Shown here: piece by piece, positions 2,602 to 14,093 of the stretch
Position numbering within the stretch: position 1 is the stretch's first letter
Layout of the letters: each line of letters begins with the position of its first letter
IMG/VR virus record: IMGVR_UViG_3300032242_003400
Location: 1 to 24,646 of that record
Length of the DNA: 24,646 nt
Origin: a virus
Direction: 5' to 3' (one strand)
Made by a program: the position numbers and the translations under genes
Notes under the pieces: generated by a model
What the model was told of the DNA's origin: nothing
Databases searched by the model: none
The model's input: only the letters and a program-made list of their open reading frames with translations

Positions 2602-3534
2602 TTATACCGAGATTGGAACATTCATTTTATCTAAAGGATTATAATCTTCAAGAATAAAATCTTCTGCGGTGTATTCGTATATTGAATCTTTTTTATTCAA
2701 TTTTAATTTTGGAGAATTAACAATAGGTCTATTGAGATATTCTTCTACTAAAGGAATGTGATTGTTATAAATATGAAAATTACCTGACATAAAGTTAATA
2801 TGTTTAGGCTTCATATCTACTTGTTGAGCGATCATATACGTGTAAAACGCCGCGCCTTGCAAGTTGGTAGATAATGCCCCCACAAAAGCATCCGTGGATC
2901 TAGCATATACACAACAGCTTAGGTCTTTCATTTCGTTGTATTTATTTGGAGTTACAATAAAATGATAAATTAAATGACAACAATTCAATACAACATCTTT
3001 TTTTTCTACTTTATCGCCTCTCCAAAAAGAAAATAAGATTCTTCTAGAATTAGGATTTGTCTTTAATTCATTTATCACATAGTCAATTTGATTAACTCCA
3101 GGATTGCTTTCTAAATTAGAGAGGTCGCCACCACAATGAATTAAATTTGGACCATATCCATATCCAATACTAGATGGATGAAATCCATTTGAATTTGCCC
3201 AGTTTTCATCTCTCCAAGCATCCCATACTTTAGAACCCATTTTATTTAAATCATCAATTTTATCTGATCCCATAAGAAACCACAGATATTCTTTCAACAT
3301 AGATTTCCAAGAAGTTTTTCTTCTTGTAGGCACAGGAACTCTTTCAGAAATATCTACGAGAGTGGAAACAAAAGGCAAGTATTTTGTGCCCGTGCCTGTT
3401 CTGTCCATCATCTGATAACCTTGATCTAAAACCTTTTGAAGATTTTGATCAAATTCCATTAAGACATAATCTTTATTTTGTTCAATTTGTCTTTTTTCTT
3501 TTATTAGCTTTAGTTCTTCTAATTTTAATTCCAT
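2602..3534 (-). CDS. thyA: Thymidylate synthase family protein (dTMP synthase or related dNMP C5-transferase)
   Basis: I place the start at the ATG at 3532-3534, preceded by AAGGA at 3542-3546. The longer frame upstream would have to read through the tRNA-like leader. The 310-aa product has RTGTGT (45-50), SRR (163-165), the catalytic Cys186 in LNCCHLIYHF, RSTD (212-215), AQQVDM and HIYNNHIPLVEE, so it is a ThyA-fold enzyme that normally methylates dUMP with methylene-THF. The N-terminus is about 25 residues longer than E. coli ThyA. The usually invariant G-L-P-F-N-I-A-S-Y loop is replaced by G-A-L-S-T-N-L-Q-G-A-A-F with one extra residue, so base specificity (dUMP, dCMP or other) is not certain. 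It has its own promoter at 3702-3730. Confidence 0.9.
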   Translation of the reverse strand: MELKLEELKLIKEKRQIEQNKDYVLMEFDQNLQKVLDQGYQMMDRTGTGTKYLPFVSTLVDISERVPVPTRRKTSWKSMLKEYLWFLMGSDKIDDLNKMGSKVWDAWRDENWANSNGFHPSSIGYGYGPNLIHCGGDLSNLESNPGVNQIDYVINELKTNPNSRRILFSFWRGDKVEKKDVVLNCCHLIYHFIVTPNKYNEMKDLSCCVYARSTDAFVGALSTNLQGAAFYTYMIAQQVDMKPKHINFMSGNFHIYNNHIPLVEEYLNRPIVNSPKLKLNKKDSIYEYTAEDFILEDYNPLDKMNVPISV

Positions 3535-3695
3535 GGATAAATCCTTAGCGATCCTACGGGATTCGAACCCGCAAATCTCCAACCAGACCGGATCGTGAAC
3601 GAGGATTTCATCGAATAAAAATTCAGTCGGAAATTTCCTCAAACCGCTACAGTTTTATCCGTAAGTATGGCTATAACGTGTTGCACTTTACGCCT
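3534..3695 (-). ncRNA. Structured thyA leader with a tRNA-like element
   Basis: The leader of about 160 nt runs from the predicted start near 3695 to the thyA ATG. On the minus strand it contains a bulged hairpin near the 5' end, small hairpins around 3602-3640, and a tRNA-like element at 3549-3595. That element has a 6-bp acceptor-like stem (3590-3595 with 3549-3554), a D-like hairpin TCT-GGTTGG-AGA (3576-3587), and a perfect tRNA T-arm GCGGG-TTCGAAT-CCCGT (3556-3572). There is no anticodon arm and no encoded CCA. An outer 7-bp stem (3654-3660 with 3535-3541) directly abuts the start codon and leaves the Shine-Dalgarno in an internal loop. A 5-bp stem (3645-3649 with 3546-3550) competes by two bases with the acceptor-like stem. 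A decayed tRNA gene is the simplest alternative to a regulatory leader. Confidence 0.5.
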
Positions 3696-3701
3696 AGTAT
3701 G

Positions 3702-3730
3702 ATTATAGTAGATAAAATTTAATAAATCAA
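3702..3730 (-). promoter_or_regulatory. Sigma70-like promoter for the thyA operon
   Basis: Reading the minus strand, TTGATT (3725-3730) is followed after exactly 17 bases by a perfect TATAAT (3702-3707). The -35 overlaps the stop codon of the upstream nucleotidyltransferase gene. Transcription would start near 3695 and cover the tRNA-like leader, thyA, folA, hldE and the small genes that follow. Confidence 0.65.
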
Positions 3731-4962
3731 TGTTTAATGTATTTTATTATTTCTTCTTTAGAGTTGTGCAATTTGCCATGAAGAATCTGCGTTATTACAT
3801 CTTTTAATACACTTCCTATTTCTGGTCCTTTATATCCCATGGACATCAGATCATTTCCACTTATTTCTAAATCTGTTATGCTTTTAGGAGCATTTGAAGA
3901 TATGGATTTTTTAATATTTTCTGGTAGTAAATTCAAATTCAAACAACTAGGATGTATTTTATTTAGTTCAAAAACAATTACGTTAGGATTTTCGTCCTTC
4001 TTCTGCCATACAAGATACAATCCCTTTAATTGCTTTTCAGTATTCAGATCGCATTTTAATTTTTTACAAATTTGTAAAGCTTTGTTTTCATCAGCCGAAC
4101 CAAACATCATGAGAAAAAGAAACTCTGACATGTATTTGCTTTTGTCGAACATTTCTTTGTTGTGAACAGAACAAGACAAGCCAGATATCTCTTGCCATAA
4201 ACCAGTTTCGCACAAAAGGTCTGCTCCAGCTAATTGATTTCCTTTTTCAACAATTTTTTCAATTTCAATAAGAATTCTTTCTCCTGGTATTCCTTTTATC
4301 AAACTTACATTATCTTTTATTTCCTTGAACGTCTCTGGCTCTATTTTAAAATCAAATCTTGAAGCGAATTGAACGCCTCTAAGCATTCTTAATGGATCTT
4401 GAGAAAAAGCTTTTTTATCAACCATTCTAATGACTTTATTTTTTATATCTTCTATTCCATTATAAGGATCGATAATATTGCCTAAATGATCTTGAGCTAT
4501 AGCATTTATTGTAAAATCTCTTCTTCCCAAATCGCTATGAACTGGCATATTATGATCTGGCGATGTGGTGAAAGCTTGATAAGCAGAAGGGTATTTGCCC
4601 ACTCTTTTTTTATACTCTTCTTTCTCATCTTGATTCATGGGTCTTTCAGTTCTTGGAAGAGCTATATCAATCGGCTCATCAACCTCAAATTCATAAGGCT
4701 TAAATTTTATAACTCCAAAAGATTGTCCGACTTCATCAACCTTGCCAAAATTACGAAGTAAATTAATTAAATTTTCAGAACTTATACCAGAAATTATTAC
4801 GTCTATGTCTTTTGATTTTTTATTTAAATAAAAATCTCTTATGGCTCCGCCAACAAAATTCGGCTTTCCTTTGTTAGCAATAATGGCTTTTAAAAATTCG
4901 CTATTTAATATCTTTTCTTTAAGTCCGCCTGTTAATGATTCAAAAAAAATTCTAAATCTCAT
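3727..4962 (-). CDS. tRNA nucleotidyltransferase / poly(A) polymerase family protein
   Basis: I choose the ATG at 4960-4962 because GAGGAAG precedes it and it sits inside the end of the upstream 55-aa gene; an ATG eight codons further up lacks a ribosome-binding site. The 411-aa protein is a class II nucleotidyltransferase with VGGAIRD (37-43), catalytic D-x-D in DIDV (52-54), RRDFTINAIA (147-156) and DPLRMLRGVQFASR (189-202). It therefore adds CCA, or poly(A), to RNA 3' ends. The family fold is clear, but CCA versus A-adding specificity is not. A charged insert of about 40 residues (about 98-146) separates the head and neck motifs. It lies immediately upstream of the tRNA-like leader of thyA. 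Its N-terminus MRFRIFFESLTGG weakly echoes the F-x-E-W peptide of nearby genes. Confidence 0.88.
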   Translation of the reverse strand: MRFRIFFESLTGGLKEKILNSEFLKAIIANKGKPNFVGGAIRDFYLNKKSKDIDVIISGISSENLINLLRNFGKVDEVGQSFGVIKFKPYEFEVDEPIDIALPRTERPMNQDEKEEYKKRVGKYPSAYQAFTTSPDHNMPVHSDLGRRDFTINAIAQDHLGNIIDPYNGIEDIKNKVIRMVDKKAFSQDPLRMLRGVQFASRFDFKIEPETFKEIKDNVSLIKGIPGERILIEIEKIVEKGNQLAGADLLCETGLWQEISGLSCSVHNKEMFDKSKYMSEFLFLMMFGSADENKALQICKKLKCDLNTEKQLKGLYLVWQKKDENPNVIVFELNKIHPSCLNLNLLPENIKKSISSNAPKSITDLEISGNDLMSMGYKGPEIGSVLKDVITQILHGKLHNSKEEIIKYIKH

Positions 4963-5119
4963 TCTTCTTCCTCTTTTTCTTGTCATCTAAATATGGCCAA
5001 GTTCTTCTAACTATGCCGCCCATAGGCAATTTGAACTGAGCAATATCCCCAACCCCACCTGTAGGAGTAGATGCCATAGTTCCAACTTCATATAACTTTA
5101 ACCATTCTCTGAAATTCAT
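4952..5119 (-). CDS. 55-aa protein with capsid-targeting-like N-terminus
   Basis: The start ATG (5117-5119) overlaps the TGA of the upstream 130-aa gene (ATGA). The stop TAG (4952-4954) lies downstream of the nucleotidyltransferase start, so three genes are chained by overlaps. The protein begins MNFREWLKLYEVGTMAST, with F-x-E-W-L and then L-Y-E/V-G, matching the T4 prohead-protease pattern (hydrophobic)-x-E. The middle is Gly/Pro-rich and the C-terminus is a Lys/Arg tail (DDKKKRKKNEI). No known domain is visible. A small packaged peptide is a reasonable inference, unproven. Confidence 0.65.
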   Translation of the reverse strand: MNFREWLKLYEVGTMASTPTGGVGDIAQFKLPMGGIVRRTWPYLDDKKKRKKNEI

Positions 5120-5508
5120 GTTATTCCGCCTTCTAGTGGGGCTGCTGGTTGTTGATTTGCTTGTGTCATTAACGATTCTAGATCTTCTATAGGAACAAGA
5201 AAAGATTCTTCTTCATTGCTTTTATCAAGTTTCTCTCTATCTTCCTTGTCATATGACAAACTATTAAAATGCTTGTCTCTGATTTGCTTGACCTTAGCGT
5301 GTGTAATATCGCCTTTTTCATTTCTTTTAAAATCTAATATTGTATATATTCCTAAATTAAAAGGAACTTGTCCAAAAGAAAAAAATGAGGAAGATTGAGG
5401 AAATTTTTTATAATCATCCTTATCAATTCCTAATTTATTCATAGCTGTGAAGTATGTTTCTTCTTCATTTTTTAAAAAATCACTAAATGAAATATTATAT
5501 TTACTCAT
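5116..5508 (-). CDS. Hypothetical 130-aa protein
   Basis: It begins MSKYNISFSDFLKNEEETYF and ends with the start of the 55-aa gene (ATGA overlap). The N-terminal F-S-D-F-L-K-N-E resembles a looser version of the F-x-E-W-L peptide of its neighbours, displaced by about five residues. The rest is charged with a central hydrophobic stretch (GQVPFNLGIYTILDFKRN, about 47-64), an acidic segment and a Gln/Pro/Ala-rich C-terminus. No family is recognised. It diverges from the plus-strand gene at 5534 across a short intergenic region. Confidence 0.7.
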   Translation of the reverse strand: MSKYNISFSDFLKNEEETYFTAMNKLGIDKDDYKKFPQSSSFFSFGQVPFNLGIYTILDFKRNEKGDITHAKVKQIRDKHFNSLSYDKEDREKLDKSNEEESFLVPIEDLESLMTQANQQPAAPLEGGIT

Positions 5509-13646: not shown

Positions 13647-14093
13647 TCAGTATAAATTTAACTGTTCTGGAACCATGTAACTGTATTCGAATCCTTCGAA
13701 ATTTTTTATTTTCGTTTTTTCTTTAAGAGGAGAAGGAATTGGTCTTCCTCGGCTATCAACACAAACGTTCCAACAATAAACCTTCCTGTCTGTTTGATAA
13801 AATTCAACTAAAGATAAGCAATGTCCTCCTAGTACTTTTTGTCCTAGTTTTACCACTAAATTAAATGGCAAAAACGGAGCATTTTTGTTGTATATTTGAA
13901 AAGTTTCTAAATAATAATCTCCATAGCAAGCCTTATTGAAATGAATAACTATTGAATATCCATCTACTTCGGCTTCTGTTTTTTTTAAGCAAGAAATATC
14001 ATATTCATAATCCATTGGAGCCAATGGAAAATTATATGGAACTAGTTGCTCAGCAAGGTTTCTTATTATTTCTATTTTTTGATCAAAACTCAT
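13647..14093 (-). CDS. Hypothetical 148-aa protein
   Basis: It begins MSFDQKIEIIRNLAEQLVPY and is followed by an alternating strand pattern (YSIVIHFNKACYGDYYLETFQIYN, LPFNLVVKLGQKVLGGHCLSLVEFYQ, VYCWNVCVDSRGRPIPSP), which suggests a compact beta-sandwich with one N-terminal helix. Several aromatic and Cys/His residues (GGHC, YCWNVC) are notable but form no recognised site. It lies between the amidoligase gene and the GTG-start gene, all leftward; the ribosome-binding site (GAGG) is about 10 bases from the ATG. No family recognised. Confidence 0.7.
   Translation of the reverse strand: MSFDQKIEIIRNLAEQLVPYNFPLAPMDYEYDISCLKKTEAEVDGYSIVIHFNKACYGDYYLETFQIYNKNAPFLPFNLVVKLGQKVLGGHCLSLVEFYQTDRKVYCWNVCVDSRGRPIPSPLKEKTKIKNFEGFEYSYMVPEQLNLY

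Follow-up and report, generated by a model that had tools for sequence, protein, structure and literature searches.

The window analysed here is the whole 24.6-kb stretch of phage DNA held as IMG/VR record IMGVR_UViG_3300032242_003400; like the other IMG/VR records in the analysis, it is a fragment. The leader of its thymidylate synthase gene (thyA) contains a transfer RNA (tRNA)-like domain of 47 nt that has no anticodon arm (hereafter mini-tRNA) and lies on the minus strand just 5′ of the thyA Shine–Dalgarno sequence (SD). Its pairing is conserved through compensatory changes in a related phage, and domains of like architecture form a wider family in other phages. The explanation that is favoured, tentatively, is that tRNA-maturation enzymes recognize the mini-tRNA of the thyA leader as a signal for processing and that cutting would expose the SD.

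Structure of the thyA leader element

The fold described in an earlier sequence-only reading of this DNA (a T-arm, a 6-bp acceptor-like stem and a GGTTGG D-like loop within 47 nt, with no anticodon arm) was confirmed at 3595–3549 on the minus strand. The acceptor-like stem is formed by CGATCC (3595–3590) and GGATCG (3554–3549), with a G–A mismatch at the seventh position; the D-like arm is TCT-GGTTGG-AGA (3587–3576) and the T-arm consists of GCGGG (3572–3568), the loop TTCGAAT (3567–3561) and CCCGT (3560–3556), giving 5 bp including one G–U pair. CCA is not encoded. The arms that flank the mini-tRNA form an outer stem of 7 bp (Table 1); this stem is present as previously described, but its 3′ arm overlaps the SD instead of lying between the SD and the ATG. 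The competing pairing suggested earlier also proved real, since the 5′ arm of the outer stem (the anti-SD arm) can pair alternatively with GAGGAAA in both the window and the related phage. This motif belongs to a conserved leader core of ∼81 nt, which also contains the hairpin TACGG-ATAAAA-CTGTA.

A structural scan gave one such element in the window versus 0.06 per dinucleotide-shuffled window. The folding stability of the whole leader is unexceptional (z = −0.58 to −1.49), so that energy alone would miss the element, which is revealed by comparison. ARAGORN and Rfam at gathering scores returned nothing at the window element, and a search of the window and of the related record L002 with all families of Rfam 15 gave nothing near a gathering score; matches at permissive E-values were rejected as chance. 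No cloverleaf with an anticodon arm was recognized in the element by ARAGORN or RF00005, and no match to transfer-messenger RNA (tmRNA; RF00023, tag reading frame, pseudoknots) was obtained in the window, the L002 match to RF00023 being an 8.2-bit fragment far under the cut-off of 47. Ribonuclease P (RNase P) RNA was considered on account of GAGGAAA and rejected (no CR-V partner and no Rfam match), as was a leader peptide or upstream extension of thyA, the frame being open in the window and closed in L002.

Conservation in thyA relatives

Seven thyA relatives in viral_contigs were compared, of which L002 and L003 both show 83% protein identity. L002 has a related leader with a mini-tRNA at the same place, likewise without an anticodon arm (7/7 acceptor pairs and a 4-bp T-stem). 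The stem sequences differ between the two phages while the pairing is retained, with four compensatory changes in the acceptor stem, one in the T-stem, two in the D-like stem and two in the outer stem; three stem positions are unpaired in one of the two. The compensatory changes in L002 argue that the window element is neither a chance structure nor a decayed tRNA. The outer stem comprises 11 bp in L002 (shuffle p = 0.024), with the SD likewise in its 3′ arm; the stem is retained through compensatory changes and is modestly supported.

The leader core is 84% identical between the window and L002 over an 84-nt match and 96% identical over 48 nt; its flanks barely align. L002 has a promoter-like site (TTGACA-16-TATAAT, 12/12) at a place equivalent to that of the site in the window (Table 1). 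The core is absent from L003, which has a short thyA leader without the element; the more distant thyA relatives lack the element too. DNA-pattern scans of viral_contigs gave no further copy of the core, all matches beyond the L002 contig being chance and mostly within coding sequence, and a blastn search of the thyA leaders against named phages found no related leader. Neither the core nor the family described below had been part of the sequence-only reading.

Mini-tRNAs in other phages

The family is defined by a 7-bp acceptor stem stacked on a 5-bp T-arm with a TTCRANN loop, a short linker containing GG and no anticodon arm; the D-like loop or linker usually contains ATAGGAA. It was discovered through a chance DNA match of the leader in the 332-kb phage record G004, which exposed a tRNA-Gln gene with a 46-nt mini-tRNA in its anticodon loop; apart from this interrupted tRNA, the leader DNA matches in G001, G002 and G004 were rejected as chance. 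Inserts in tRNA-Thr and tRNA-Arg genes came from a scan of the G004 genome, which also encodes a CCA-adding enzyme and a T4-like RNA ligase, the latter found in G004 only. Further members were gathered by pattern scans of viral_contigs followed by a structure filter.

The tRNA genes of other IMG/VR phages are interrupted by five related elements: the three in G004, one in a tRNA-Leu gene of the 345-kb record G008, where an uninterrupted homologue confirms the junction, and one in a tRNA-Leu gene of L262, the identical insert of which recurs in contig L293. With the insert removed, these genes, otherwise unrecognized or misread, become canonical tRNA-Gln(TTG), tRNA-Thr(TGT), tRNA-Arg(TCT), tRNA-Leu(TAA) and tRNA-Leu(TAA). 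Three inserts terminate exactly in NCCA. A tRNA-Ser gene of Prevotella phage Lak-A2 (MK250019) carries a 93-nt insert that ends in a mini-tRNA, and its removal likewise leaves a canonical tRNA; the outcome in all six genes tested suggests precise removal. The tRNA-Ser and tRNA-Gly inserts of Lak-A2 are both made up of a 5′ hairpin whose hexaloop is A-rich, AAATTAAA and a mini-tRNA, the 7-bp acceptor stem of which is perfect.

Mini-tRNAs are also found behind a tmRNA gene (Table 1) and 5′ of protein genes other than thyA (L256, L269 and L283). In L269 and L283 a terminator-like hairpin is followed by the mini-tRNA and then by the SD; the gene on the 5′ side reads as capsid-like, and the downstream proteins have no relatives in named phages. 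The mini-tRNA ends ∼2–8 nt before the SD in four of the five leaders (those of the window, L002, L269 and L283).

In an alignment of eight mini-tRNAs, drawn from six other phage records, all 12 pairs are formed in every sequence and 11 have changed on both sides, these members having been selected for pairing. Among 172 distinct pattern matches, nine full folds were seen versus 0.28 expected when the acceptor strands were dealt anew, the nine including one ordinary tRNA-Lys and one repeat of the L262 insert. A pattern scan of bacterial genomes yielded no convincing mini-tRNA among the 80 matches (of 114) that were classified, these being chance or the normal variable arms of tRNA-Ser/Leu.

Other interrupted genes were observed as well. 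A tRNA gene of G008 (C1:250751–250905, L339) has an anticodon-loop insert of ∼82 nt with no obvious mini-tRNA, and a tRNA-like element containing GAGGAAA lies just 5′ of it (C1:250690–250741). Phage tRNA-like genes with anticodon-loop inserts of 35–55 nt and no mini-tRNA fold occur in L072 (near reverse-strand position 13818) and in G004 (C1:198848–198953).

Interpretation

The simplest explanation for the recurring placement of the mini-tRNAs (in anticodon loops, behind a tmRNA gene and just before an SD) is a cut signal for tRNA-maturation enzymes. By analogy, the structure of the window mini-tRNA appears to fit known minimal RNase P substrates (PMC11143913). The cleavage steps, the enzymes and their order, and the effect on thyA translation that we infer would be as follows. 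The leader would be a phage RNA element of ∼150 nt with its own promoter, a structured core and a 3′-terminal mini-tRNA reduced to an acceptor/T-arm stack and a D-like loop. In the uncut state the arms flanking the mini-tRNA would pair and hide the thyA SD. Cleavage by RNase P would then fall on the 5′ side of 3595 and that by a tRNA 3′-end nuclease just past 3549. These cuts would separate the arms, leave a thyA messenger RNA (mRNA) with a compact leader of ∼15 nt that retains the SD, and free the leader core as a separate RNA. Mini-tRNAs of this type appear to act as inserts that can be removed when they lie in tRNA anticodon loops, and as punctuation when they precede other phage genes. A regulatory tRNA mimic acting on thyA had been suggested by the sequence-only reading; control of thyA translation is plausible, a processing signal being likelier than a tmRNA-like mimic.

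Several observations weigh against this explanation. Taken alone, the 7-bp outer stem of the window is not significant (shuffle p = 0.24), and after the 3′ cut the SD could still pair locally with UAUCC. In the G008 and Lak-A2 tRNA-Ser inserts the mini-tRNA does not directly follow the 5′ exon but is separated from it by extra sequence, which would make precise removal by RNase P alone impossible. Only two thyA leaders, those of the window and L002, carry the element. Its relation to the family is also incomplete. When a covariance model was built with the window, L002 and L262 left out, L262 scored 32.3 bits, L002 22.7 bits (E = 0.004) and the window element 16.6 bits (E = 0.05–0.11); the last two scores are weak, but they are the best in the 83-kb L002 record and in the window, respectively. 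Over 3.3 Mb of large phage records the model gave only two weak matches, one of which is real (the Lak-A2 tRNA-Ser insert). The window element has the architecture of the family (6/7 acceptor pairs and 5/5 T-stem pairs), but ATAGGAA is missing, its place being taken by TCTGGTTGGAGA in the window and by ATAGGGG in L002; it is therefore described as like the family and not filed as a proven member. Nor is it a tRNA intron of the Lak type, as it lies in the thyA 5′ untranslated region (UTR) and not in an anticodon loop.

A different account, which we regard as unlikely but deserving consideration, takes the core and the mini-tRNA as one mobile or excisable unit in the thyA 5′ UTR that would be spliced or cut out whole and whose plan resembles that of the tRNA inserts of Lak and G008. 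The larger inserts of G008 and Lak-A2 have a mini-tRNA at the 3′ end and a 5′ hairpin with an A-rich loop of six bases, and the thyA core hairpin with its ATAAAA loop is similar to the latter; L003 resembles an empty site, its homology to L002 picking up again right behind the mini-tRNA; and the genome with three tRNA inserts is the one that encodes the T4-like RNA ligase. However, the core is far larger than the 5′ parts of the tRNA inserts and has no clear common sequence with them, a 5′ UTR has no exon need, and each of the two copies is directly preceded by a promoter-like site of its own.

Control without cleavage, as in a riboswitch, is improbable. Here a tRNA-binding protein such as EF-Tu, TruB or RNase P would bind the mini-tRNA, and the SD and GAGGAAA would be alternative partners between which the anti-SD arm toggles. 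The presence of the SD in the outer stem together with the pairing of the core GAGGAAA allows such a switch without proving it: the duplex energies of the anti-SD arm with the SD and with GAGGAAA are almost equal in L002 (−11.4 and −11.5 kcal mol−1) and are −8.0 and −12.1 kcal mol−1 in the window, and thyA output is something that a phage may tune. Against this, GAGGAAA is itself SD-like and hence pairs with any anti-SD sequence, there is no candidate ligand, and switching would be senseless for mini-tRNAs in anticodon loops or beside a tmRNA.

Quite improbable, too, is an independent small RNA, in which the core would be a separate phage noncoding RNA gene, expressed from its own promoter, whose tRNA-like 3′ end would serve maturation or stability as that of tmRNA does, with thyA merely downstream. 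Such a gene would account for the promoter-like site directly 5′ in both phages, for a core conserved far better than its flanks and for the mini-tRNA that likewise follows the G010 tmRNA; it would leave aside that in both phages the mini-tRNA lies a few nucleotides from the SD with a flanking arm over it, and all copies of the core that were found lie in front of thyA. A decayed tRNA gene (the other suggestion of the sequence-only reading) or a chance resemblance would fit the blank ARAGORN and Rfam results, the missing ATAGGAA and the acceptor mismatch, but is hardly credible given the compensatory changes in an L002 element that is equally anticodon-less, the one element observed versus 0.06 expected, the same architecture in unrelated phages and the finding of no complete tRNA at this place in relatives.

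The processing signal favoured for thyA can be extended to the proposal, possible but doubtful, that large phages use anticodon-less mini-tRNAs as portable `cut-here' signals: within tRNAs they would be excised by tRNA-maturation enzymes and the exons sealed by RNA ligase, and before genes such as thyA they would free a hidden ribosome-binding site. This would constitute a protein-dependent route of RNA splicing and punctuation in bacterial cells, unlike group I/II introns. If the processing model holds, the tRNA-maturation enzymes of the cell are exploited by phages for two ends, the interruption of tRNA genes and the control or punctuation of mRNAs, and a simple in vitro assay can directly test for splicing by these enzymes together with a phage RNA ligase. 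An oddity in one mRNA leader is now tied to the unexplained `enigmatic' tRNA introns of megaphages.

Genomic context

The phage genes of the window include those for a UvsX-like recombinase, a DnaB-like helicase and a single-stranded DNA-binding protein. The CCA-adding-enzyme-like gene that had been noted upstream of the leader is identified as such by its domains (Table 1), but no gene matching it is present in the L002 (83-kb) or L003 records, and its link to the element looks incidental. The enzyme was accordingly rejected as an obligate partner of the mini-tRNA, and its gene is probably not part of the leader element. Of the ten records tested, four have a CCA-enzyme gene (the window, G004, G008 and the record of L262). 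In the window the gene separates thyA from a small gene at 5116–5508, relatives of which sit close to thyA in L002 and L003; judged from this gene order, it looks like an insertion specific to the window phage.

Table 1 Locations of the features discussed (positions without a record name refer to the window)
Feature	Location	Strand	Evidence or remarks
thyA, thymidylate synthase, 310 aa, gene behind the leader	2602–3534	−	PF00303 4e-67; PHROG 160; ATG at 3534
Outer stem, 3′ arm AGGATTT	3539–3545	−	Pairs with 3608–3602; covers most of SD AAGGA (3546–3542)
Mini-tRNA, 47 nt	3549–3595	−	Fold; pairing kept in L002; top window match of family model
Outer stem, 5′ arm AAATCCT (anti-SD arm)	3602–3608	−	Pairs with 3545–3539
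Conserved leader core, ∼81 nt, GTGCAACAC...GATGAA	3606–3686	−	Near-identical in L002
σ70-like promoter TTGATT-17-TATAAT, directly 5′ of leader	3702–3730	−	10/12 consensus matches; similar sites frequent in shuffles of the same AT-rich region
CCA-adding-enzyme-like tRNA nucleotidyltransferase, upstream of leader	3727–4986	−	PF01743, PF12627, PF13735; PHROG 2244
tRNA-Gln, Thr and Arg genes, 45–48-nt mini-tRNA in anticodon loop	G004:C1:183007–183123, 197790–197908, 275593–275714		L211, L215, L218
tRNA-Leu(TAA), 79-nt insert	G008:C1:236128–236290		L214; 31 nt including small hairpin, then mini-tRNA
tmRNA gene	L210:1108–1539		G010, 123.6-kb phage record; mini-tRNA with encoded CCA 6 nt downstream
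Mini-tRNA between upstream gene and SD of next gene	L283, around 532–573	Reverse	
Mini-tRNA between upstream gene and SD of next gene	L269, around 2710–2756	Reverse	
Insert in Lak-A2 tRNA-Ser GCT	MK250019, ∼417.4–417.6 kb	−	L334
Insert in Lak-A2 tRNA-Gly TCC	MK250019, 33234–33392		L336

Comparison with known systems

Insert-bearing phage tRNAs have already been reported in Lak phages. Devoto et al. (2019) described as enigmatic the introns that they reported in tRNAs of Lak phages, noted of one that it `may encode a tRNA', and left excision and function unexplained (PMC6784885); the two Lak-A2 inserts are likely to be these introns. They are like the window element in ending in an anticodon-less mini-tRNA and differ in that they interrupt tRNA anticodon loops, the window element being part of an mRNA leader behind a conserved core. 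A search of the open-access literature yielded no report of the mRNA-leader form (subscription papers lay outside the search).

All phage introns known at the time of a 2014 review were in protein genes (PMC3984707). Bacterial tRNAs can carry group I introns in their anticodon loops, and such introns are found in phage genes too (PMC3984707), but at 45–50 nt the inserts are much too short to be a group I ribozyme. The tRNA-like domain of tmRNA (RF00023) shares with the window element a D-like loop and the lack of an anticodon arm; the window element, however, is a compact 47-nt hairpin-type domain and not the two ends of a long RNA, and it has no tag reading frame, no pseudoknots and no Rfam match above threshold.

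A hairpin of acceptor stem and T-arm is enough for RNase P to act on, and among the several phage RNAs that this enzyme cuts are T4 gene 32 mRNA and C4 RNA (PMC11143913, PMC4919922). Pre-tmRNA, phage M3 RNA, the P1/P7 C4 antisense RNA and T4 gene 32 mRNA are such acceptor/T-arm-like non-tRNA substrates (PMC11143913, PMC4919922); they have no known sequence relation to the window element and none has been described as an anticodon-less tRNA beside a thyA start. Plant mitochondrial t-elements and MALAT1/MEN-beta are eukaryotic, nuclear or organellar, and likewise without sequence relation, but as tRNA-like structures that are cut by RNase P within non-tRNA transcripts, and in MALAT1 by RNase Z too (PMC4919922), they provide the nearest functional analogy to the window element.
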